Notes under the pieces: model-generated
The model's input: only the letters and a program-made list of their open reading frames with translations
The model's database searches: none
What the model was told of the DNA's origin: nothing
Made by a program: the position numbers and the translations under genes
Shown: piece by piece, positions 14,022-52,486 of the stretch
Position numbering within the stretch: position 1 is the stretch's first letter
How the letters are laid out: every line of letters begins with the position of its first letter
DNA from: a virus
DNA: 52,486 nucleotides
Virus record (IMG/VR): IMGVR_UViG_3300033979_000594
Span: 1-52,486 of that record
Reading direction: 5' to 3' (one strand)

Positions 14022-15155
14022 TTATGCGGACACTGGTAAATGCTTAGACCAATCAAAACGCGGTTGATTAATCAATGCGTATTCCAAATACGCTTGATTC
14101 CAACTACGGTGGCTATAAAAATCTTGCAAGCTTTTGGATTTAATATATTGCTCCCATACAGCCTGATGCTGGATTGGTTGCCAGGTTAATACAGCGTCAG
14201 GAAGGGGGACTAAAGCCATCTCTTTTTTAGTTTTGATGGAATATTCCTTCCATCTGATTTGTAAGTTGTTATGGTCTTTTTTCAGGTGGCTGTAGACATT
14301 AGCCCGTGACTCATGGACATCACTTCCAAATTTGCCCGCCCACTCCAAGGCGAACCATTGCCAAAAGTCATTATCTAACTGGCCATCTTTCTTCCACGGT
14401 CCATCTGGTAGCCATTCCCAAGCTATTTCTTTTGCGCTTTTACGCGGTTTTCCAAATGGTTCAACCACATTTGCCTTGTCAAGACGCGCCGGGGCGGCGG
14501 GCGCAACTTTGTCCAATGAGTGATTTATCTGTTTACCCGAAATTCCTTCCTTTAAATCAGGAATAATAGATATCTGTTCTACTCCATCTTGTCTTAAATC
14601 CTCTTTAGCGGGAGAAAGTCCGCTAGATACTTCTTCTTTAGATATTTCTTTCTTAAATACTTCTTGGAATAAGTATTTATTATGTGGCAGGTTTTCCGTA
14701 GCCGGATTTTCCGTAGCCGGATTTTCCGTAGCTGGATTTTCCGTAGCTGGATTTTCCGTAGCTGGATTTTCCGTAGCCGGATTTTCCGTAGCTGGAAAAC
14801 CTGATTCCGGTTTTACCCTTGCTGTACGGGCTTTCTGAGTTTTTTTGCTTGGTTCGCTTGATGGTATTTCCCGAATAACAGATTTCCATCCTGCCATTCT
14901 TCCGTTTACTCGTGCTTGCTCACGAGTTAAATACCCAAACTTTTCTAATTCTTTTAATGCTGAACAAACAGATGTTTTTCCGTCAGATTCGGATTGATCC
15001 GATAAGTGTTCAGTGTTAATCTCCCACCCATCAGGATAAGAGAGAAGCAAATGATGTAACCCACGCGCTTTGAAGCTTAAACGTGAATCTCTAATAGCTG
15101 CGTTGGCTATTACTGTGTAATCTTTTGAATGCTGCACTCTTATTGTTTCCCCCAT
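14022..15155 (-). CDS. Probable replisome organiser / helicase-loading HTH protein, 377 aa
   Basis: The N-terminal 100 residues (DYTVIANAAIRDSRLSFKARG, then LLLSYPDGWEINTEHLSDQS and ALKELEKFGYLTREQAR) match the winged-helix domain common in plasmid and phage replication proteins. It is followed by a Pro-rich linker with seven PATEN pentapeptides, then a second domain from about residue 240 with a DFWQWFALEWAGKFG helix. Position directly before dnaB suggests origin binding and helicase loading. The ATG at 15155 has GGAGGT upstream; a GTG one codon earlier is possible. Two degraded relatives flank the type IV operon (43277-43694, 47738-48115). Confidence 0.7.
   Translation of the reverse strand: MGETIRVQHSKDYTVIANAAIRDSRLSFKARGLHHLLLSYPDGWEINTEHLSDQSESDGKTSVCSALKELEKFGYLTREQARVNGRMAGWKSVIREIPSSEPSKKTQKARTARVKPESGFPATENPATENPATENPATENPATENPATENPATENLPHNKYLFQEVFKKEISKEEVSSGLSPAKEDLRQDGVEQISIIPDLKEGISGKQINHSLDKVAPAAPARLDKANVVEPFGKPRKSAKEIAWEWLPDGPWKKDGQLDNDFWQWFALEWAGKFGSDVHESRANVYSHLKKDHNNLQIRWKEYSIKTKKEMALVPLPDAVLTWQPIQHQAVWEQYIKSKSLQDFYSHRSWNQAYLEYALINQPRFDWSKHLPVSA
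14692..14796 (-). repeat. 15-bp minisatellite coding PATEN pentapeptides
   Basis: Seven tandem 15-bp units (TTTTCCGTAGCTGGA on the plus strand, C/T variation at one position) encode (PATEN)7 in the linker of the replisome-organiser protein. The repeat keeps the frame, so copy-number change would alter linker length without breaking the protein. Confidence 0.9.
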
Positions 15156-37852: not shown

Positions 37853-37878
37853 TACCCACTGAAGCGTATTAGTGGATA
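37853..37878 (-). repeat. TACCCACT hairpin family, copy 1
   Basis: TACCCACT / AGTGGATA arms around GAAGCG, at the 3' end of the Rha gene. One of five 26-bp copies at 37.8-48.1 kb. Confidence 0.8.
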
Positions 37879-37884
37879 TGGGAA

Positions 37885-40147: not shown

Positions 40148-40160
40148 TTTGCATTGTATT

Positions 40161-40186
40161 TACCCACTAAAGCGTATTAGTGGGTA
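40161..40186. repeat. TACCCACT hairpin family, copy 2
   Basis: TACCCACTAA / TTAGTGGGTA stem (10 bp), loop AGCGTA. Located between the convergent 109-aa and KilA-N genes. Confidence 0.85.
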
Positions 40187-40200
40187 TGGGAATTTACGGA

Positions 40201-41102: not shown

Positions 41103-41960
41103 ATGATTAATCAAGTAATTCATGGTGATTGTTTTGAGGTTTTGAAAGATATTCCTGATGGTTCTATTGACGCTGTAATCACAGATCCGCCTTACATGAC
41201 AACTGATTTAAACTTTGATAAAACAGGCTTTGATGTTGACTTATTCTTAAAATTATTATTACCAAAACTTAAAAGTGATGGACAATTAGCTGTATTTGGG
41301 AGTATTGAATTACTTGCTAAGTTTAGCGGTATTTATCCTATTAGATGGTCAGGAATGTGGTTAAAACCGAGAGGAGTGATGAGAACTCATACAGCCAAGA
41401 AACCTATGAGCAAAAGCGAACCTTACTGTATATTTGCTCACCCAAAACATAAAGTATCAAACCTTGTTTATAACAAAATATTATTGCCAGGAGAGCCTTA
41501 TGAAAAAAAACAAAAAAATACTGGCTATATTAGAGACGGCAAAAATCAAATAGATAGAGCAAATGCTTCTGCATGGACCAAAGATGATTATGTTTCAGAG
41601 AATCATGGGACAAGACAGCAAACAGATGTTATTGAATCTCCGTTCAAAGGCTGCATGAAACATCATGAACGAACCATTCACCCCACACAAAAGCCTGTAG
41701 CACTGATATCTACATTGGTTCGGTGGATATCCAACCCCGGCGATTTAGTCCTTGACCCATTTGCCGGTAGTGGTACAACAGCGATCGCCTGTAAAGAACT
41801 CAACAGAAACTATATCTGCATTGAGAAGGAACGGGAATATGTTGACATTATTCATAAACGCCTAAACACTCCCATTACTGAGAGAGGCTTAACTGTAGAG
41901 GAACAGGTAGAGATTGAGGAGAAGATTAAACCCGGTCATCAACAGTTGTCATTGTTTTAA
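41103..41960 (+). CDS. DNA methyltransferase, beta class (N6/N4), 285 aa
   Basis: DPPY (residues 28-31) is the catalytic motif IV. FAGSGT (residues 220-225) is motif I and comes after it, the beta-class order. PTQKP and LIR/LV segments before it are typical. It would methylate adenine N6 or cytosine N4 in DNA, for host-defence evasion or regulation. The C-terminal 25 residues are charged and end in GHQQLSLF, a QLSLF-type sliding-clamp motif. It is followed by a TACCCACT hairpin. No restriction endonuclease was seen next to it. Confidence 0.93.
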   Translation: MINQVIHGDCFEVLKDIPDGSIDAVITDPPYMTTDLNFDKTGFDVDLFLKLLLPKLKSDGQLAVFGSIELLAKFSGIYPIRWSGMWLKPRGVMRTHTAKKPMSKSEPYCIFAHPKHKVSNLVYNKILLPGEPYEKKQKNTGYIRDGKNQIDRANASAWTKDDYVSENHGTRQQTDVIESPFKGCMKHHERTIHPTQKPVALISTLVRWISNPGDLVLDPFAGSGTTAIACKELNRNYICIEKEREYVDIIHKRLNTPITERGLTVEEQVEIEEKIKPGHQQLSLF

Positions 41961-41963
41961 AAA

Positions 41964-41989
41964 TACCCACTAAAGCGTTTTAGTGGGTA
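41964..41989 (+). terminator. TACCCACT hairpin family, copy 3, after methyltransferase
   Basis: TACCCACTAA / TTAGTGGGTA with loop AGCGTT, 4 bp after the methyltransferase stop. No long T run follows, but position suggests 3'-end formation. Confidence 0.75.
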
Positions 41990-42002
41990 CAAAAGATTCA
42001 AG

Positions 42003-43276: not shown

Positions 43277-43694
43277 ATGTCTTTAATGGCTATTTTTATC
43301 CACAATCAGGTTTTCCAGCTGCGGAAAAACCAGCTACGGAAAAACCAGCTACGGAAAAACCAGCTGCGGAAAAACCAGCTACGGAAAAACCAGCTACGGA
43401 AAACCTGCTATATAATAAATACTTATTCAATAAAGTATTTAATTAAAGAATTATCTAAAGAGGAAGTATCTAAGCGGAATGCCCCTCATAAGAGGATTTA
43501 AGAAAAGAACTAACACAACAGATATCTGTTATTCCTGGCTTAAAGACAAATATTTTTAGAGAACAGATAAATCACTCATTGGACCAGGTTATGCCCGCCC
43601 GCCGCGCTTAAACACTATTGCACAAGAAGCTAATAGACTTTGGTTCAGAATTTATAAAGCAATTTTAAAGCGTACTTATTGCATAAATAAAAAA
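43277..43694 (+). pseudogene. Degraded copy A of the replisome-organiser gene
   Basis: The frame reads QSGFPAAEKPATEKPATEK then TENLLYNKYLFNKVFN before a stop, where the intact gene (14022-15155) has ESGFPATENPATEN and TENLPHNKYLFQEVFKKE. In another frame it continues QISVIPGLKTNIFREQ then INHSLDQVMPARRA and a stop, matching QISIIPDLKEG and KQINHSLDKVAPAAPARL. So the linker and following segment survive, with frameshifts and no N-terminal domain. It lies on the opposite strand to the intact gene and just upstream of the type IV operon. A second copy follows that operon. Confidence 0.8.
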
Positions 43695-43724
43695 TACCCA
43701 CTAATACGCTTTAGTGGATACAAA
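43497..43724 (+). repeat. Direct repeat A flanking type IV-B operon
   Basis: About 228 bp from TTTAAGAAAAGAAC to the TACCCACT hairpin. It matches 47928-48143 with few substitutions and small indels (near-identical on reading). Includes the last part of pseudogene A. Confidence 0.85.
43695..43720 (+). repeat. TACCCACT hairpin family, copy 4
   Basis: TACCCACTAA / TTAGTGGATA arms, loop TACGCT. Inside direct repeat A. Confidence 0.75.
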
Positions 43725-43874
43725 AAAATTTAGTTTAAATCTTTTTTAGTGTATCTCAAGGGTTAATCCCACATTTCATACAGATCGTTTATTGATTAAT
43801 TAGCAAAATTATTACATCCGAAAAATATAAAGTTCCGTATACTTTAAGCTTGACATTATTAATAGCTATTAATC

Positions 43875-43920: not shown

Positions 43921-44439
43921 GTGACAATAAATCATTATGGGATGCCGCAGACACGAGACAAATGTTATGGCGTAGCGGCTTGTTTAAGTTATTGGGTTTT
44001 CAAATGTCGTGATAGAAAACGTAGTCCAGCGATGGGAACTAAAACCTGGACATACTTGGAATCTTCTATCAAGAATTGCGCGGAAATATCCACAAATTTA
44101 GAAGATTATTTACAAAGGCTTTGCGATAAATTGATATCGCAATTAAGACCTGTAGAGCTAACCAAAATCATTCAACCAACTCAGAGAATACTGAGAATTA
44201 ATGAAGATGCAACTGAAATTAAGGAACTACCAATAGATCGAAGTTTGGTTTTTATGGGGTGGCTTGACTTGCTTGCTGATATTGAACCCCACGGATTTAG
44301 TGAGTGGGACGTAATGGAATTGCTCAGAACAAAAACAGGAGTTATTCAAGTAATTTGTCGTCTGCGATTTGAAGAAGATAGAAGTTTGGGGCTTGATGAA
44401 CCAGAAGATTTTATTGAGGTAGAGGTGACAAATGTTTGA
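43921..44439 (+). CDS. First gene of type IV-B module, Cas11-like small-subunit candidate, 172 aa
   Basis: The GTG start has GGGAAAG upstream; ATG 43942 is an alternative. The protein is mainly helical with an N-terminal segment of basic and aromatic residues (LSYWVFKCRDRKRSPAM) and a middle ENCAEIS/LEDYLQRLCDKLISQL helix, suitable for a Cas11-type small subunit. I see no direct sequence signature, so this rests on size, position before csf2 and the coupled operon. Its stop overlaps the csf2 start by 8 bp (ATGTTTGA at 44432-44439). Alternatively it is an unrelated accessory gene. Confidence 0.5.
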   Translation: MTINHYGMPQTRDKCYGVAACLSYWVFKCRDRKRSPAMGTKTWTYLESSIKNCAEISTNLEDYLQRLCDKLISQLRPVELTKIIQPTQRILRINEDATEIKELPIDRSLVFMGWLDLLADIEPHGFSEWDVMELLRTKTGVIQVICRLRFEEDRSLGLDEPEDFIEVEVTNV

Positions 44440-45565
44440 CAATTATAATATTTTTGACAGAGAGAAATTAACTCTGCATTGCTTAATCACGCTACAGACA
44501 CCATTAAGCCATATAGGCGAAGTATCTGGCAATGTTAGCAACTTGAAAACTACTAAGTTATTAGATTTTGAAGGTAATCCTAGAAGTGTTTTTGTCTATT
44601 CTGGTAATGCAATCAGAAACGGTATTTTGCGCCGGGTAGGAGTGGCAGCAGCACTCACAGAATTAGGAATTAAAGTAAATCCAGATACTCACCATACAAT
44701 GTTTGCTGGCGGGCGAATTGATGGGGGGACGGCTTCAGATATGGAACTGGATAAAAAGATCCGGGTCTTTATGCCTTGGTTGTCAGTATTAGGAACAGCT
44801 AAACCCATAGGTGTTTTTGGAACTAAAGAAGCTCAGATGGTAGCTGGTAGAATTAATGTTGGCAGTGGTTATTTAGTCTGCTATGAGTCAGCAGAATACG
44901 TTTACAATCAAGTCCCAGCAATTTTACCACCGGAAATACAACCGACTATTTTAACATTAATTGAAGCCAAAAACAGACTTTCTTCTGACCCTTTTGTTGC
45001 CACAAAACCACAAGACTTGACTAATTGGAATCAAGTAAAATCAGAATGTTTACCATTGGTCAAAAAAGCAATGAAAACATGGACTGAATACTTAACAATT
45101 GATCAGACAACTCGCAGGGATAGCACTTTAGATCCCAACTTACTCAAATTTCTACCATCAGAAGTACAAGCACAATTAACAGGTGATGGTAAAACTAAAG
45201 AGAAAACTAAATCAGACCAGATGATTGCTGCTGATAGATTAATTATGCCCGGTGCTAAACTTTATTCCCGATGGGATTTGAATTGTACTCAAGTAGAGGA
45301 GGGATGGATATTTGATACTTTGCTCAAGTTCTCAGAATCACCTTATATTGGTGGCAAAGGTAATCGCGGTAATGGCAGGGTTCATCTTGATTTCTGGTTT
45401 CAATCTGACCATGAACGGGGTTTATTGTGTTCTTTGAAGGATGGAGTCATGGGGGACAGATTTATTAATTCCCATCAAAAATATCGGGAATATATCAATC
45501 AGTATCAGCAGTTTTTAAGTGAAGCAAAAACATCCAAAGAATTAAGGAAGTTACTAGGTGAATAA
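44432..45565 (+). CDS. csf2: Csf2 (Cas7-like backbone protein), type IV-B
   Basis: The 377-aa protein has the RAMP-like start LTLHCLITLQTPLSHIGEVS, then a Gly/Asn loop (VYSGNAIRNGILRRVGVAAA) like the SGNSLRGxLR motif of Csf2/Cas7. The thumb-like region includes MFAGGRIDGGTASDMELDKK. A late glycine-rich strand FSESPYIGGKGNRGNGRVHL matches the usual xPxxGGxxxxGxGxV end. In type IV complexes this subunit forms the filament that holds the guide RNA. It is coupled by 8-bp overlaps to both neighbours. Confidence 0.82.
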   Translation: MFDNYNIFDREKLTLHCLITLQTPLSHIGEVSGNVSNLKTTKLLDFEGNPRSVFVYSGNAIRNGILRRVGVAAALTELGIKVNPDTHHTMFAGGRIDGGTASDMELDKKIRVFMPWLSVLGTAKPIGVFGTKEAQMVAGRINVGSGYLVCYESAEYVYNQVPAILPPEIQPTILTLIEAKNRLSSDPFVATKPQDLTNWNQVKSECLPLVKKAMKTWTEYLTIDQTTRRDSTLDPNLLKFLPSEVQAQLTGDGKTKEKTKSDQMIAADRLIMPGAKLYSRWDLNCTQVEEGWIFDTLLKFSESPYIGGKGNRGNGRVHLDFWFQSDHERGLLCSLKDGVMGDRFINSHQKYREYINQYQQFLSEAKTSKELRKLLGE

Positions 45566-46244
45566 TTTAAAAGTCACTGCATATTTGTCTACACCGATTG
45601 GTGTCTATGACAATTGGAGTCCTTCTTTAGACGGACTTCTTACCTATAGATTATTAGAAGAAAATAATCTATTATCATCCAATCCTACAATTCAACAACT
45701 TGCAGAAGTTCAGGATTTTTTAGTAGATGAATTACCGCTTAAACAGAATACAATAATGAATGATAAGTATTTCTGTGTAAGTTCACCTTGTTACGTGGTC
45801 AAAAGTGAAAATACTGATAGATACCGGAAAAGATGGGATAATCATGAAAATAGCTTGAATTGGGGGAAAAGAAAGCCTAAATTCTTGACAGGTGAAGGTG
45901 CGGAAAAGTCTTATGATTTGCCTTTATACACTCGTTTAACGAATAGTATTAGTTGGTTTGCAGTAGGAGACAAAGACGGGATTAACGCTCTATTGTCATC
46001 TGTTACCCATATTCAGAAAAAACGAAGTTATGGCAATGGTGAGATTAAGCAATGGCAAATAGAAATAGCTTATGATGACTACCATTTATGGCGAGATGAT
46101 AAGCTAATGCGTCCTATGCCTGTGAGGTTAATATCACAAAAAATAGATAATCCTCAATTGCTCTGGGGATGGAAAAGCCCAGCCTGGTTAGCAGCTAATA
46201 AAGAACTTTGCTATATGCCAAAGGATAATGTGATTTATGCTTAG
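45558..46244 (+). CDS. csf3: Csf3 (Cas5-like), type IV-B
   Basis: Starts GTG in an 8-bp overlap with csf2. LKVTAYLSTPIGVYDNWSPS and LDGLLTYRLLEE resemble the first beta-alpha of Csf3; KKRSYGNGEIKQWQIEIAYD holds the Gly-rich loop (S-x-G-x-G) of RAMP proteins, here SYGNGEI. At 228 aa it is the normal Csf3 size. It would cap the crRNA 5' end. It precedes the CysH-like gene, the gene order expected of type IV-B loci. Confidence 0.8.
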   Translation: MNNLKVTAYLSTPIGVYDNWSPSLDGLLTYRLLEENNLLSSNPTIQQLAEVQDFLVDELPLKQNTIMNDKYFCVSSPCYVVKSENTDRYRKRWDNHENSLNWGKRKPKFLTGEGAEKSYDLPLYTRLTNSISWFAVGDKDGINALLSSVTHIQKKRSYGNGEIKQWQIEIAYDDYHLWRDDKLMRPMPVRLISQKIDNPQLLWGWKSPAWLAANKELCYMPKDNVIYA

Positions 46245-46983
46245 TAATGGTTCTGGGGTTCAATACCCTTGGTTAAAAAAGAAAATTACCAAAGCCATTA
46301 ATTTCATTAATCAATGGCTAGAACAATGTAATTATCAGGTTTATGCAAGTATTTCCGGTGGTAAAGATAGCTTGGTAATGTCTCATTTAATTAGAAAAGT
46401 TTACCCTGATTGCCCGTTAGTTTGGGTAAACCAAGGACTGTTAGCAGAATGGGATGATTGTATTGAGTTATTGGAATACTTGAAAACTCAAAACTGGAAC
46501 ATTATTGAGCTTTGTCCAGTTCGTGATTTATGGCATTTATACATAGATTACGGAGTTCCATTAGAGGGTACAATGGATACAAAAGTAGATAAATTAATTA
46601 ACCAAAAATTGATTTATGATCCATTACAAGAGTACCAAGAAATTAACAATATCAAGGGGTACGCATGGGGAATAAGGAAACAAGAAAGCAAAAATAGAGC
46701 ATTTTATCTTAACAAGTATGGCGAAGTTCATGAACTAAAAAATGGGTTAATTTGTTGCTCGCCTATTGCTCACTGGACTACAGAAGAAATATGGCAGTAC
46801 ATAGATATGTACTCACTCAAATACCCAGCAATTTATGACATTAACAAAATGACAGTCAGGAATGGTTGCCCGATTGGAACTACAGGAGCAAACTGGGGTA
46901 GATTAGCTGAATTAAAAAGATATTACCCCAGTATTTACAACCAATTTGTTGATAAATTCCCACAAATATCAAACTATGTTTAA
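46237..46983 (+). CDS. cysH: CysH-like PP-loop ATPase of type IV-B module
   Basis: YASISGGKDSLVMSHLIRKV carries the PP-loop SGGKDS at residues 40-45 (ATP pyrophosphatase signature). YAWGIRKQESKNRAFYLN and CSPIAHWTTEEIWQYIDMYS match phosphoadenylylsulfate reductase/CysH-type ends; RNGCPIGTTGANWGRL carries one cysteine that could be catalytic. The same gene is a known companion of type IV-B Cas genes; its role there is unknown. It is coupled by 8-bp overlaps. A DndC/PUA-like sulfur modification function is an alternative. Confidence 0.9.
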   Translation: MLSNGSGVQYPWLKKKITKAINFINQWLEQCNYQVYASISGGKDSLVMSHLIRKVYPDCPLVWVNQGLLAEWDDCIELLEYLKTQNWNIIELCPVRDLWHLYIDYGVPLEGTMDTKVDKLINQKLIYDPLQEYQEINNIKGYAWGIRKQESKNRAFYLNKYGEVHELKNGLICCSPIAHWTTEEIWQYIDMYSLKYPAIYDINKMTVRNGCPIGTTGANWGRLAELKRYYPSIYNQFVDKFPQISNYV

Positions 46984-47737
46984 CTGTTATCTTTGTGCTA
47001 AACCAGCTTCAAACCCACTAGAATTATCTAATACTTTCACTATGCACTCATCAGCTAAGTGTCCAGATTCTAAGCTGCTGTGCGATCGCTGCTATTCCAC
47101 AATTTCTGGTAATCAAAAGCAGTTATGGTATTGGAATGAAGGTAAAAATAAGTGGTCAAAACTGTGGGGACGGTCTTTGTCTAGGGTGTACCAAGGTGAC
47201 ACTTTAATAGCACCAATAATTGAAGGTACTCACACTGAAGGTAAAGATACTTTCTTGGTAGTGAAAAACTTATTAACACGGGTAGAAATCAGGGAATATT
47301 TATTAACCCCCCCTGAACCACCGTTTACTATTGCCATAGCAGAATCAGGACAAAAGCACATTATCCCATGGGCATTAGAAGCGCGTAGTCGTACGCTTTT
47401 TCCAGTTCAATTTGAGTTGGACACGGTTTATGTTGATAGCAGATTTAAAAAGTATTTGCAGATATATGAAGAATTAATGGGATTGGGATTTAGTAAAACT
47501 GAGATTGATTCAGGGAATTATAGAAGCGACAAACTGATGAAAGTTTTTGACGATAGATTTTGGGAACTTGAAGGAGGAATAAAAGCCATTAGAGACACTA
47601 GGTTAATAGAGTTGATAAATTACATCGCTCAACTACAATCAAATGCCTTCGTGGCGGAAATAACACCAATTCCTGTAATTCCTGTTTCTCCTATGAGTCC
47701 ACCTGCAATTAACCCAGTTCAGTTGTCTTTATTTTAG
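46976..47737 (+). CDS. csf1: Csf1-like zinc-finger large-subunit protein, type IV-B
   Basis: ATG 46976 lies in the 8-bp overlap with cysH; an upstream TTG is less likely. N-terminal FNCYLCAKPASNPLELSNTF and LLCDRCYSTI give C4/C7 and C36/C39, with C29 between, the zinc-finger pattern of Csf1. The middle binds-type region (KQLWYWNEGKNKWSKLWGRS) is aromatic/basic. A Pro-rich linker (IPVIPVSPMSPPAINP) ends in VQLSLF and stop: QLSLF is a canonical beta-clamp-binding motif. At 253 aa it is near usual Csf1 size. The rest of the family signature cannot be checked by eye. Confidence 0.72.
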   Translation: MFNCYLCAKPASNPLELSNTFTMHSSAKCPDSKLLCDRCYSTISGNQKQLWYWNEGKNKWSKLWGRSLSRVYQGDTLIAPIIEGTHTEGKDTFLVVKNLLTRVEIREYLLTPPEPPFTIAIAESGQKHIIPWALEARSRTLFPVQFELDTVYVDSRFKKYLQIYEELMGLGFSKTEIDSGNYRSDKLMKVFDDRFWELEGGIKAIRDTRLIELINYIAQLQSNAFVAEITPIPVIPVSPMSPPAINPVQLSLF

Positions 47738-48115
47738 CAAAGAAAGCTTTGAAAGCCTTATATTCTCGATCCGTTAAAAGTAACGTTGGAGTCGTTAAAA
47801 GTAACGTTGGAGTCGTTAAAAGTAACGTTGGAGTCGTTGAATTTAAGGTTTCATCTATATTATTGAACAATCTTAATTAACAGTCTTAATTAACAATCTT
47901 TAGCTTAAGCGTAAATAAAAAAGCTTCTTTAAGAAAAGAACTAATACAACAGATATCTGTTATTCCTGATTTAAAAGTAAATATTTTTAGAGAACAGATA
48001 AATCACTCATTGGACCAGGTTATGCCCGCCGCGCTTAAAAATGACAAGAAGCTAATAGACTTTGGTTCAGAATTTATAAAGCAATTTTAAAGCGTACTTA
48101 TTGAATAAATAAAAA
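47738..48115 (+). pseudogene. Degraded copy B of the replisome-organiser gene
   Basis: Immediately after csf1, the frame AKKALKALYSRSVKSNVGVV matches the basic linker of the intact protein (SKKTQKARTARVKPESGF), then a KSNVGVV repeat and a stop. Later, QISVIPDLKVNIFREQ and INHSLDQVMPAALKNDKKLI recover the intact order (QISIIPDLKEG, KQINHSLDKVAPAAPARLDK). The segment is on the plus strand and frameshifted. The last 200 bp are the direct repeat shared with copy A. Confidence 0.8.
47772..47834 (+). repeat. 21-bp minisatellite (KSNVGVV) in pseudogene B
   Basis: Three tandem 21-bp units starting CGTTAAAAGTAACGTTGGAG encode KSNVGVV. It occupies the same linker position as the PATEN repeats in the intact gene, but with a different unit. 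Confidence 0.9.
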
Positions 48116-48143
48116 AATACCCACTAAAGCGTGTTAGTGGGTA
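47928..48143 (+). repeat. Direct repeat B flanking type IV-B operon
   Basis: About 216 bp near-identical to 43497-43724, including the TACCCACT hairpin at its end. The two copies bracket the five-gene operon. Confidence 0.85.
48118..48143. repeat. TACCCACT hairpin family, copy 5
   Basis: TACCCACTAA / TTAGTGGGTA, loop AGCGTG. At the end of direct repeat B and before the minus-strand 67-aa gene. Confidence 0.8.
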
Positions 48144-48166
48144 TCAGGTTGAAACCTACAATGCAA

Positions 48167-48618: not shown

Positions 48619-50487
48619 ATGAAAACAATCAAAATCAAAATCAAACTTACCACTGATCAGGTGCAACTGTGCGATCGCTATTTGGAAGAACTAACATGGT
48701 TGTGGAACTTAACACTTTCTAATCAACTACATAACCATTGCGTGACGTGGTATGCTTGGGCAGCTAAACTCAGTGCTGACTTGGATAAAGCTACTGAAAA
48801 ATTAGACAAGCTTAAACCTGAACAGCAGCAATTAGTAAAGGATTATTACAGGACTAAGGATAAGCCTAGACTGACTAAAAAAGAACAGGAATTAGTGGCT
48901 AAATTTGACATATTTGCCAGATGGAGTTCATTTAGTTTAGATGGGATTATTCCCGTTCCTTTACGGCTGGGGAATAGCGGTTATGAAGGTTTATCCTGTC
49001 AGATAGCCACAGGTGGGAACTACTGGAAGAGAGACGAAAATATCAACATCCCAATTAATACCAAGAAAGGTATTATTCACGTTAAAGGATACAAATTAGT
49101 TAAGGGTGATAAACTTTGGCAACGAATAGAAATAGTCCCCCATAAGTACCGTACATTCCCTGGTGGAAAGTTTGAAGGTAGGGAACTGACTACTTTGGAG
49201 AAACTTGATAACGTGAATGGACTGAACACTTTAAGGGCATTCCAAAATTTACCAGACTTACAAGTTTCCTCTCACTATATAGGCGGACTACTGGCATTTT
49301 TTAAAGAATCATGGTCGGCATTTCTAGACCCTAAAAGGATGAACAGTAGAAAGCCTAAATTCAAAAAAGACAGTGACAAGATTACAACTTTATCTAACAA
49401 TCAGTGTGCGCCTAATAGGATTGACGTTAATAAAAACATAGTTACTGTCACTGGGTTTAGTCCTATTACCATTATTGATAAGAATTGGGTAAAAAGATTG
49501 AACTTGTCTCAAGTTTTACCACGCACATATATGTTAACCCAAAATCCATCAGGGTACTACATTAATATTGTCATTGCTCATCCATTACATGAAGAGAAAA
49601 TCGCGCTGGTAAAGAAATTACCCAAGGTTAAAAAAGAGTTTGGAGAAGATAGTCAAGAGTACGAAGATATCAAATCAAAAATCAAATTTCTTGAACAACA
49701 AATCAAGGAATCATCAATAGTTAAAGGCAAAGATTTAAGTGTGGGTATTGACCCCGGAGTACAGGCTGTTGTGTCTACAGATCATGGTGCTTTATTCCTT
49801 CCTAACCTTACTAGAGAGCGGGTTTCAATTCATATTGAGGAATTACAATCACGCTTAGACAACGCTGAATTAATTAACGATAAAAAGTGGAAAAGTTTGG
49901 GCAACAAGACCCCTAGAATCAAGACAAAGAATGAAACTAAGTTACAGGAAAAAATAAGCCGTCTACACGAACGTGGGGCTAATTCCTCTAATGCTTTTAA
50001 TCATAAGCTATCCACAAGATTATCTCGTACTTATGAACATATTGCCTGGGAAGACACGCAGATTAATAATCTACTAAAACAAGTAGAGCCAAAAGCATTA
50101 CCAGAAGGGGTGGGATATGCTCACAATGGTGCATCGGCTAAACGCGGTTTAAACTGGATTATGCGACAAAGATGTTTAAGCGATTTAAAAGCTAAAACCA
50201 AACAGAAAACAGAAAATAGAGGTGGCAACTTCCATGAACCACCTGCTAACTACAGTTCTCAAACTTGTCATTGTTGTGGACAAAAGGGAGAACGGCGATC
50301 GCAACATGAATTTGTCTGCAAAAACTCTGACTGTAAGTTATTTGACATTCCCCAGCAAGCTGATACTAACGCTGCTAGAAATCATAAGCAAAATGGTGGT
50401 TTTGAACTGGGAGAGGTCAAATATCATAATGTTAAGCTAGTTTATCAAAAGCCTAAAAGATTTAAGAAAAAACGCTTGACAAAGTAA
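48619..50487 (+). CDS. cas12: TnpB-like type V effector (Cas12, V-U group), 622 aa
   Basis: All RuvC catalytic residues are present: D378 in GIDPGVQAVVSTDHG, E478 in IAWEDTQINNL and D582 in DTNAARNH. The zinc ribbon is C550/C553 and C567/C572. The N-terminal 370 residues form the recognition lobe (ELTWLWNLTL start, RKPKFKKDSD segment). Length and layout match compact TnpB-derived type V-U effectors; cyanobacterial V-U2 is my best guess, from memory. It is not Cas12k, which lacks an intact RuvC site. It is followed by a promoter, a structured RNA and a CRISPR array, so it is CRISPR-linked, not a free transposon gene. It probably cleaves DNA. Confidence 0.82.
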   Translation: MKTIKIKIKLTTDQVQLCDRYLEELTWLWNLTLSNQLHNHCVTWYAWAAKLSADLDKATEKLDKLKPEQQQLVKDYYRTKDKPRLTKKEQELVAKFDIFARWSSFSLDGIIPVPLRLGNSGYEGLSCQIATGGNYWKRDENINIPINTKKGIIHVKGYKLVKGDKLWQRIEIVPHKYRTFPGGKFEGRELTTLEKLDNVNGLNTLRAFQNLPDLQVSSHYIGGLLAFFKESWSAFLDPKRMNSRKPKFKKDSDKITTLSNNQCAPNRIDVNKNIVTVTGFSPITIIDKNWVKRLNLSQVLPRTYMLTQNPSGYYINIVIAHPLHEEKIALVKKLPKVKKEFGEDSQEYEDIKSKIKFLEQQIKESSIVKGKDLSVGIDPGVQAVVSTDHGALFLPNLTRERVSIHIEELQSRLDNAELINDKKWKSLGNKTPRIKTKNETKLQEKISRLHERGANSSNAFNHKLSTRLSRTYEHIAWEDTQINNLLKQVEPKALPEGVGYAHNGASAKRGLNWIMRQRCLSDLKAKTKQKTENRGGNFHEPPANYSSQTCHCCGQKGERRSQHEFVCKNSDCKLFDIPQQADTNAARNHKQNGGFELGEVKYHNVKLVYQKPKRFKKKRLTK

Positions 50488-50772: not shown

Positions 50773-51515
50773 CTTGCAACTAAGACTGGGGACTGAGGAT
50801 AGTTGAAACCCATAGGTGCGGGTCGTGGGTCCACAATCTCTTTGCTTGCAACTAAGACTGGGGACTGAGGATAGTTGAAACACTCTAGCAACCTAACCCT
50901 AGATTCTATCAAAGATCTTGCAACTAAGACTGGGGACTGAGGATAGTTGAAACCTCCTAAGTAAATATTCATTGATGACATAAAGGTAGCATACTTGCAA
51001 CTAAGACTGGGGACTGAGGATAGTTGAAACTTCAAAAAGACTTTCTCTAGCCTTCCTGTGGCTCTGTCTTGCAACTAAGACTGGGGACTGAGGATAGTTG
51101 AAACTAGAAACTGCTAAGTGTTGTAAGCTATCTATAAATTCTTCTTGCAACTAAGACTGGGGACTGAGGATAGTTGAAACTGAACGCCTAAACCTGCTAG
51201 AATCCTTTGCTGAACTTGCAACTAAGACTGGGGACTGAGGATAGTTGAAACAAGTATCGAAAAGCAGGGGAAACTGATTCGCAAGCCTTGCAACTAAGAC
51301 TGGGGACTGAGGATAGTTGAAACTCTGCCAATGAGATTTGGCAACAATTAAAACAATGGTATACTTGCAACTGGGACTGGGGACTGAGGATAGTTGAAAC
51401 AAACCGACTTTGAAGGACTGGGGACTGAGGATAGTTGAAACTAGGCAGTTTAAACCGGGGGGGTTTATGGAATTTAGACTTGCAACTAAGACTGGGGACT
51501 GAGGATAGTTGAAAC
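50773..51515 (+). CRISPR. CRISPR array 1 (37-nt repeat, 10 full plus 1 truncated copy)
   Basis: Repeat 1 is 37 nt, starting CTTGCAACTAAGACTGGGG and ending GATAGTTGAAAC, at 50773, 50845, 50917, 50994, 51068, 51144, 51215, 51287, 51364 (AA to GG variant), 51479, plus a truncated 26-nt copy at 51416-51441 after a 15-nt remnant. Other spacers are 34-40 nt. The plus strand is probably the sense strand because the 3' half pairs with the tracrRNA candidate. The array lies downstream of the type V effector with no Cas1/Cas2 in the window. Confidence 0.95.
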
Positions 51516-51547: not shown

Positions 51548-52486
51548 CTTGCAATTAACTCAGTTCCTCAAGTCCGGTTTCACCTATTACCTAATAGATA
51601 GGCACGCCACAGGAGACAATTCCCTTGCAATTAACTCAGTTCCCCAAGTCCGGTTTCACCAATGACCAGGTGCGCGATCGCACCCCACAAGAGCAAACTT
51701 GCAATTAACTCAGTTCCCCAAGTCCGGTTTCACCTCCAAAAATCTTTACCATACCCCGGAGCATCCTCTCTTGCAATTAACTCAGTTCCCCAAGTCCGGT
51801 TTCACCTCGCCATTGTCCAGACTGGCGTAAATTTCACTCTTGCAATTAACTCAGTTCCCCAAGTCCGGTTTCACCTTGTTTTAGTAGTTGCCAAATTTCC
51901 TTAGCCGTCCTTGCAATTAACTCAGTTCCCCAAGTCCGGTTTCACCTGACAACCTGACATTTTCTATTCTTTTGTCCCTACTTGCAATTAACTCAGTTCC
52001 CCAAGTCCGGTTTCACCTATATAGAGAAGTATAGCGCCAGGCTGTCTTACATCTTGCAATTAACTCAGTTCCCCAAGTCCGGTTTCACCTTGTATGGCTG
52101 CTTATGCCACCTCAAAATCCCTGACTCTTGCAATTAACTCAGTTCCCCAAGTCCGGTTTCACCAGAATATCTCTAGCCATAGATTAGTAAACCAAGTCTT
52201 GCAATTAACTCAGTTCCCCAAGTCCGGTTTCACCTGAGGACGGGCGCGGCGAGATATTCCAGAAGTGGCTTGCAATTAACTCAGTTCCCCAAGTCCGGTT
52301 TCACCAATTTCCACCGGCACTAAATCTAATCTAGGGATATGCGCTTGCAATTAACTCAGTTCCCCAAGTCCGGTTTCACCGATCGCCCATACTTACCTCC
52401 TATTCCCCAATCTATTACTTGCAATTAACTCAGTTCCCCAAGTCCGGTTTCACCTGCCGTATCCCAGATCGTAAGCTGTGTAAAGG
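51548..52486 (-). CRISPR. CRISPR array 2 (37-nt repeat, 13 copies, continues past window)
   Basis: The plus-strand repeat starts CTTGCAATTAACTCAGTTCC and ends CCGGTTTCACC, at 51548, 51624, 51698, 51770, 51839, 51910, 51981, 52053, 52127, 52198, 52269, 52344 and 52418. Spacers are 32-39 nt. The first copy has one variant base (TCCTCAAG). It follows array 1 after a single 32-nt spacer. Reverse-complemented, the repeat holds GACTTGGGGAACTGAG, close to GACTGGGGACTGAG of repeat 1, so the array is probably read from the minus strand, facing array 1. One spacer contains a HIP1 site. Confidence 0.93.

Follow-up and report, generated by a model that had tools for sequence, protein, structure and literature searches.

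We found that Csf1, the Cas8-like subunit encoded by a phage type IV-B CRISPR-Cas operon, ends in a five-residue peptide, QLSLF, with which its tail quite probably docks on the sliding clamp. The operon lies within the window, the whole stretch of 52,486 nucleotides analysed here. What type IV-B systems do and what CysH contributes to them are questions as old as the name of the subtype, and this peptide is the first sequence-level hint we found of where a IV-B complex acts. We propose, with a probability of roughly 0.6, that the phage complex traded guide-based addressing for addressing to the replication fork via the clamp, where CysH would act. If true, a class 1 CRISPR complex would be addressed by a replication protein in place of a guide. 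The literature searched (preprints and most subscription journals lay outside its scope) yielded no previous description of a CRISPR-Cas protein with a clamp-binding motif, and within that literature the Csf1 peptide is the new part of the finding.

The operon is intact (43921-47737) and comprises cas11-csf2-csf3-cysH-csf1:

43921..44439, + strand, cas11 small subunit, 172 aa, GTG start (PADLOC typeIV_Cas11, 2.7e-6)
44432..45565, + strand, csf2 (Cas7), 377 aa (PADLOC Csf2_0_IV, 2.6e-36)
45558..46244, + strand, csf3 (Cas5), 228 aa, GTG start (PADLOC Csf3_0_IV, 1.8e-43)
46237..46983, + strand, predicted CysH-like PP-loop ATP pyrophosphatase, 248 aa (Pfam PAPS_reduct PF01507, 4.8e-18)
46976..47737, + strand, csf1 (Cas8-like), ATG start (PADLOC Csf1_0_IV, 1.7e-21)
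47642..47737, + strand, predicted-disordered tail of Csf1 ending QLSLF-stop, candidate beta-sliding-clamp-binding peptide (pLDDT and clade-wide conservation)

All five ORFs are present where the sequence-only reading had placed them, and the tight coupling that it described is confirmed by overlaps of 8 nt between adjacent genes. The csf1 ORF is open from a TTG at 46946 (263 aa, 46946-47737); since the 8-nt overlap holds throughout the operon, the real start of csf1 is probably the ATG at 46976. In profile-HMM searches, Csf2, Csf3, Csf1 and the Cas11 candidate each matched a PADLOC type IV model, in line with their proposed identities. Csf2 and Csf3 also matched NCBIfam TIGR03115 (1.1e-7) and TIGR03116 (3.5e-12), each under the curated cut-off of the model, and a sequence search of the PDB with Csf2 returned only a weak IV-A match (E=0.17). 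The fold of Csf1 matched that of type IV-A Csf1 (7xg1_A and 8rc3_G). Homologues of cas11 adjoin csf2 in related loci (38-98% identity), and the identical gene order recurs in further viral records, indicating that it did not arise by chance. A promoter scan gave matches no commoner than in shuffled sequence. The genes dinG and cas10 are marks of types IV-A and IV-C, respectively. Profile searches of the operon and neighbouring proteins scanned revealed no Cas10, DinG or Cas6, as had been claimed for the latter two. The operon is type IV-B by every defining gene, and the original assignment is supported by the Csf2 and Csf3 matches and by the lack of a nearby type III Cas10 among the proteins scanned.

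The last codons of csf1 (CAG TTG TCT TTA TTT TAG, 47720-47737) encode QLSLF followed by a stop, and Csf1 ends in exactly these residues in all complete copies of the window's clade. QLxLF is a known C-terminal clamp motif (PMC4549789), and QLSLF fits the consensus for peptides that bind the beta sliding clamp. The AF2 model of Csf1 is confident in the core, but its pLDDT stays under 50 for most of the tail (residues 233-263); the linker before QLSLF is variable, diverges freely and is predicted to be disordered. Among eight sampled copies, four of the five QLSLF codons carry synonymous changes and none an amino-acid change, demonstrating purifying selection on the candidate motif.

A terminal clamp peptide was detected in 17 of 56 non-redundant Csf1 proteins, compared with 7 of 2,939 other ORFs. 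The QLxLF pentapeptide accounts for twelve of these Csf1 and is found in 6 of the 2,939 other ORFs, a difference with a Fisher p of about 9e-18 when related sequences are treated as independent; five further Csf1 end in a QLxLxL/F-type peptide, a hexapeptide variant that joined the search after some sequences had been seen. Of the six pentapeptide matches outside Csf1, five are copies of the phage's own DNA methyltransferase and the sixth is a IV-B Cas11. The Csf1 C-termini of distant viral IV-B systems read QLGLF, QLELF, QLALDLF, QLQLPF or QLSLF, and on the Csf2 tree the peptide changed at least six times (parsimony 9). Many distant viral type IV-B systems have repeatedly evolved this putative clamp tail on Csf1, suggesting that the system works at replication forks. 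The peptide is missing from 39 of the 56 Csf1, including those of actinobacterial and haloarchaeal plasmids, and the tail is therefore not a general IV-B feature. Unlike Csf1 of the window's clade, the plasmid Csf1 C-termini examined from these two groups carry no clamp peptide. It is also missing from Csf1 in two relatives with their own DnaN, and in Rhodovastum it sits on Cas11, not on Csf1.

Because many IV-B Csf1 lack the peptide and clamp binding is read from sequence, the C-terminus could instead bind no clamp and either contact another subunit or have arisen by chance, which we consider improbable. Shuffling the last 30 residues of Csf1 disfavours chance, as 0.08 motifs were expected and 17 observed, and if the peptide were a subunit contact, one would not expect distant lineages to arrive repeatedly at the clamp consensus, or a methyltransferase and the Rhodovastum Cas11 to carry it. 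Clamp-binding transposases and other enzymes carry C-terminal QLxLF peptides that are likewise short, often unstructured and repeatedly evolved (PMC4549789), whereas here the motif sits on a CRISPR effector subunit.

The methyltransferase is encoded upstream of the operon:

41103..41960, + strand, N6/N4 DNA methyltransferase (PF01555, 3.1e-32) ending ...GHQQLSLF, the same clamp peptide as in Csf1

Alignment revealed that the middle of this protein was swapped between near-identical phages while its clamp tail was kept. Furthermore, the same phage encodes a putative divergent sliding clamp (L106:253-1614; PF00712, 1.4e-8, above the cut-off; PDB beta clamp, 2e-4), in which the central domain matches weakly and the third is too divergent to score. 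The clamp gene is found at 94% identity in one relative.

A comparable exchange affects the fourth gene of the operon. Its product bears the PP-loop motif SGGKDS, which together with the PF01507 match upholds the CysH-like identity first proposed. Its AF2 model (pLDDT 89.9) finds PAPS reductase 6vpu as its best PDB fold (E=5.7e-11, TM 0.63). True PAPS reductase (CysH) has a conserved catalytic C-terminal cysteine. Since no cysteine is invariant in an alignment of 16 CysH-like homologues, the protein is CysH-like and not a PAPS reductase despite its fold. CysH is nearly always present, and it has been exchanged between phages that are nearly identical and that keep their clamp tails. One relative (L012) carries a CysH of another subfamily (~23-28% identity), although the rest of its operon is about 95% or more identical.

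Downstream of the operon, the window carries a type V effector gene and two CRISPR arrays:

48619..50487, + strand, Cas12p (C2c8 / V-U2-like), 622 aa (NCBIfam C2c8, 4.3e-57, below that model's cut-off)
50773..51515, + strand, CRISPR array r1, 37-nt repeats, adjoining Cas12p (repeat and spacer listing)
51548..52486, - strand, CRISPR array r2, 37-nt repeats, truncated at the end of the window

Residues 1-613 of Cas12p are identical to 'Cas12p' of PDB 9jfs/9jg3, making it a neighbouring type V effector that stands outside the IV-B complex. The neighbour of array r2 is a second C2c8/TnpB-like gene, which lies outside the window (L106:8650-10413). Each array thus adjoins its own type V effector, which ruled both out as IV-B arrays. 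The sequence-only reading had seen no array belonging to the operon; this holds for IV-B, although two arrays are visible in the window beside type V effectors. None of 19 spacers matched any of 50,697 phage records. The 3' end of csf1 resembles repeat r2 over 20 nt. We set aside the reading of this likeness as a crRNA-like element; the segment codes for the linker that precedes QLSLF and is not conserved in more distant phages.

With two arrays 3 kb downstream, and a two-repeat mini-array beginning a few bases past the csf1 stop in one relative (L003), the IV-B complex might be guided by crRNAs borrowed from neighbouring type V or host arrays. We regard this as very improbable given the pairing of each array with its own effector, the lack of Cas12p in most related IV-B phage records, the lack of Cas6 in the window's operon and the finding that a studied IV-B complex took up no co-expressed crRNAs (PMC8175902). 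A published hypothesis for array-less IV-B systems holds that the complex soaks up host crRNAs and shields the phage from host CRISPR (PMC8175902), which would make the Csf1 tail incidental. Non-specific RNA binding fits such a sponge (PMC7937560), but it predicts neither a conserved, repeatedly evolved clamp peptide nor the exchange of CysH, and we give it only a slight chance.

In the clamp-addressed mechanism that we favour, Csf2, Cas11, Csf3 and Csf1 would assemble on short non-CRISPR RNA, as is known for another IV-B system, that of Mycobacterium sp. JS623, whose complex assembles on heterogeneous, non-crRNA RNA (PMC7937560). The flexible Csf1 tail would then tether the complex to a sliding clamp, be it the divergent clamp of the phage or that of the host, and so bring CysH, the predicted ATP pyrophosphatase, to DNA that is being copied or has just been copied. 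There, CysH would most likely modify nucleic acid, speculatively through adenylylation-type chemistry, alongside the phage DNA methyltransferase bearing the same tail. The outcome is speculative and could be protection of phage DNA or inhibition of a competitor's DNA. If docking occurs, nucleic-acid modification has about an even chance of being the function, and replication interference somewhat less than that. Tentatively, viral IV-B would be a replisome-borne modifying ribonucleoprotein that lost guide addressing, repeatedly gained a clamp tether and uses an interchangeable CysH to give replicating DNA a protective modification.

Slightly less probable still is that the clamp-docked complex obstructs the fork as a roadblock or competes for the clamp, so that the host chromosome or a co-infecting element can no longer replicate, with CysH as an accessory. 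Plasmid replication is suppressed by type IV-A complexes, and IV-A1 complexes have been observed close to replication forks, also when no target was present (PMC11551745); moreover, two type V effectors with arrays on the same phage are a sign of inter-element conflict. However, interference leaves unexplained both the near-constant presence and subfamily swapping of CysH and the tail shared with the phage's own methyltransferase.

Known systems differ from the phage operon in several respects. The actinobacterial-plasmid type IV-B of JS623 shares Cas11, Csf2, Csf3, Csf1 and a CysH-like gene with it, and likewise has no array and no Cas6 (PMC7937560). That system resides on a plasmid, whereas the replicon of our operon is a phage encoding a putative sliding clamp. 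On Mycobacterium and Rhodococcus plasmids, cysH is often separate and on the other strand, while in the phage it lies between csf3 and csf1. A report on 'Fuxiviridae' viruses of Bathyarchaeia describes a virus-encoded IV-B with a CysH-like protein, as in the phage operon, and refers to type IV systems that several lytic phages carry (PMC10848311). Phage-borne IV-B being already known from that report, the interest of the operon does not rest on the argument of the sequence-only reading, namely the value of a compact cyanobacterial example. 'Fuxiviridae' are archaeal viruses whose IV-B has its own mini-array, and the passages of the report examined here describe no clamp peptide (PMC10848311). 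The nearest named relative is Gloeobacter morelensis plasmid pGMOR1 (NZ_CP063846, L013), with a csf2 50% identical and a CysH-like gene too; its operon differs in having Cas6, a cupin gene and a CysH of the other subfamily, and in lacking the clamp peptide.

Cas6 occurs in pGMOR1 and in relatives L034 and L035-L039. In all of these Csf1 lacks the clamp peptide, and one Cas6-bearing relative has an array (G005). Two relatives (L032 and L043) have neither Cas6 nor the peptide. Loss of Cas6 may be linked with gain of the peptide, a pattern that rests on few independent cases.

The operon's replicon is a viral record (IMG/VR), and TerL occurs in 8 of 12 related records, consistent with the phage-like element first described. 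The host is likely cyanobacterial, as had been suggested, since the nearest cellular relatives are the Gloeobacter plasmid and a Spirulinaceae MAG. A search of 386 cyanobacterial genomes with repeat r1 (up to 3 mismatches) gave no match, and csf2 was found among them only in the Spirulinaceae MAG. Self-BLAST revealed direct repeats bracketing the operon and a partial copy of a rep gene segment:

43497..43717, direct repeat, left copy
47928..48140, direct repeat, right copy, ~90% identical to 43497-43717
43314-43606, partial copy (82%) of a rep gene segment with 15-nt iterons

The operon cas11-csf2-csf3-cysH-csf1 lies at window positions 43921-47737 on the plus strand, where the sequence-only reading had placed its five genes, and the type IV-B assignment was borne out: Cas11, Csf2, Csf3 and Csf1 matched type IV Cas models in PADLOC (E-values of 2.7e-6, 2.6e-36, 1.8e-43 and 1.7e-21, respectively). 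NCBIfam also matched Csf2, Csf3 and Csf1, all three under curated cut-offs. The CysH-like identity proposed for the fourth gene held as well (PAPS_reduct, E = 4.8e-18), and DinG and Cas6, reported missing by the same reading, were indeed not found among the scanned proteins, nor was Cas10. Adjoining genes overlap by 8 nt, a rule from which the csf1 start was set at ATG 46976. The operon is real and, by gene content, an ordinary-looking IV-B operon.

All complete Csf1 copies of the window's clade end in QLSLF followed by the stop codon, a peptide of the QLxLF type, which matches the consensus for beta-sliding-clamp binding. In the alignment, the Csf1 core, whose sole clear solved relatives are type IV-A Csf1 proteins, ends near residue 230 and is followed by a Pro-rich, freely diverging linker, then by these five invariant residues. 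Among eight sampled copies, four of the five motif codons showed synonymous differences with the amino acids unchanged, a sign of selection on the peptide. An AlphaFold model of Csf1 scored ~90 or more over most of the core and mostly <50 in the tail.

For comparison, we used 11 close, 13 more distant and 38 still more distant viral loci, together with four cellular loci and plasmids. Distant Csf1 proteins end in QLSLWG (L040 and L041), QLLLF (second Csf1 of L033), QLGLF, QMEMFL, QIQLELF, QLQLELF, QLALDLF, QLALELF, QLQLPF or QLSLF; most Csf1 proteins, including those of actinobacterial and haloarchaeal plasmids, lack the peptide. Among non-redundant ORFs of at least 100 residues, 12 of 56 Csf1 terminated with the pentapeptide and a further 5 with a longer form, which joined the search only after some sequences had been viewed, vs 7 of 2,939 other ORFs for both forms (Fisher p ~9e-18 for the pentapeptide alone and ~9e-26 for both, related sequences being counted as independent). 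The phage's own methyltransferase accounts for five of these seven, and the Rhodovastum Cas11 (QLELFEAA) for another. When the 30 C-terminal residues of each Csf1 were shuffled, 0.08 matches were expected. On the Csf2 tree, the trait requires 9 changes, at least 6 of them forced by well-supported branches.

We infer that Csf1 probably docks the IV-B complex on a sliding clamp. It is established from other work that non-specific RNA supports assembly of a IV-B complex (PMC7937560) and that IV-A1 complexes lie close to replication forks even when the target is absent (PMC11551745). With the clamp peptide, what IV-B systems do becomes a question that can be tested directly. A probable, divergent clamp is encoded beyond the window in G014, a 64.5-kb record that overlaps the window, is 100% identical gene for gene where compared, and extends 11.4 kb further. 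This 453-aa protein (L106:253-1614) contains a DNA_pol3_beta domain (PF00712, 1.4e-8; PDB beta clamp, 2.1e-4), with the third domain below detection, and has a 94% identical counterpart in the relative G013. The IV-B phages G005 and G008 encode a recognisable DnaN, and the Csf1 of both lacks the peptide. An ADP-ribosyltransferase-like gene (L106:1726-2247; PF01129, 9e-13) probably encodes a host-takeover enzyme of the phage.

Within the cyanobacterial-type clade, the Cas6-bearing loci (L013, L034 and L035-L039; the three that were tested scored between 6e-35 and 1e-49 for Pfam Cas6) lack the peptide, peptide-bearing loci lack Cas6, and L032 and L043 have neither. By a custom profile, Cas6 also occurs at the edge of L018, which likewise lacks the peptide. 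This exclusion, seen in few independent cases, is consistent with guide-based addressing having given way to addressing through the clamp. In G005, a phage with Cas6, there is an array of 5-7 palindromic repeats (L094:6066-6505), against the rule that IV-B has no arrays.

CysH-like homologues retain the PP-loop region and a G-x-R-x-x-E motif, and no cysteine is invariant, as remarked earlier for IV-B (PMC8175902). The predicted structure folds like PAPS reductases and adenylating ATP pyrophosphatases. Speculatively, CysH might modify nucleic acid at the fork; the chief rival to this reading is replication interference. In L012, csf2, csf3 and csf1 are ~95% or more identical to those of the window, and cysH belongs to another, Gloeobacter-like subfamily (~23-28% identity); the 247-aa ORF that follows it had no Pfam or PADLOC match, and the two together span L012:10677-12081. 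Similarly, the phage methyltransferase kept its N-terminus and QLSLF-bearing C-terminal part while its middle was replaced, which parallels the L012 exchange in that the enzyme part changed and the tether was kept. Such swaps could, again speculatively, mean that one modification is traded for another in response to pressure from the host. Two loci are multi-headed: L033 (1696-8665) joins one cas11-csf2 core to the modules csf3-cysH(B)-csf3-csf1 and csf3-cysH(A)-csf1, with the peptide only on the second Csf1, and L082 (4617-9137) has a single core with two csf1 and two csf3.

The surroundings of the operon hold the following features.

37853-37884, 40156-40191, 41959-41994, 43690-43725 and 48113-48148: palindromic intergenic element, TACCCACTAAAGCGTTTTAGTGGGTA type
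43497-43717 and 47928-48140: direct repeats (~90% alike) bracketing the operon
48619-50487: Cas12p gene, next after the operon
50773-51515: array r1
51548 to window end: array r2

Residues 1-613 of the neighbouring effector are identical to the PDB 9jfs/9jg3 protein 'Cas12p', so this effector is already known. Array r1 follows its gene; r2 has a different repeat and adjoins a second C2c8/TnpB-like gene, seen in G014, and the arrays were therefore assigned to type V effectors. Hence the claim that the operon has no array of its own stands in this sense, although two arrays are visible in the window. In L003, an r2-type mini-array of two repeats begins a few bases past the csf1 stop. The second effector (L106:8650-10413, 587 aa) has a long tail with QLTIW, possibly another clamp peptide. 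The left bracketing repeat sits in a stretch that partly duplicates, at 82%, the segment of the rep gene with 15-nt iterons. These iterons lie inside the rep coding sequence (14490-14796), as in lambda O, and partial copies of the segment flank the operon (43314-43606 and 47928-48032). Two copies of the palindrome score as minus-strand terminators; the palindromes could also be regulator sites.

The element is phage-like, as first read: the window is an IMG/VR record with a DnaB-like helicase, a rep gene, a thymidylate kinase, matches to virion-structural proteins and a Rha-type regulator, and terminase is present in 8 of 12 related records. The host is likely cyanobacterial; csf2 occurs in 1 of 386 cyanobacterial genomes, a Spirulinaceae MAG, and among named relatives a Gloeobacter plasmid comes closest (50%). 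In the plasmid loci L014, L047 and L054, DUF3440 or further PAPS-reductase-family genes and ParB-like genes adjoin the IV-B operons, an IbrA/IbrB-like pairing.
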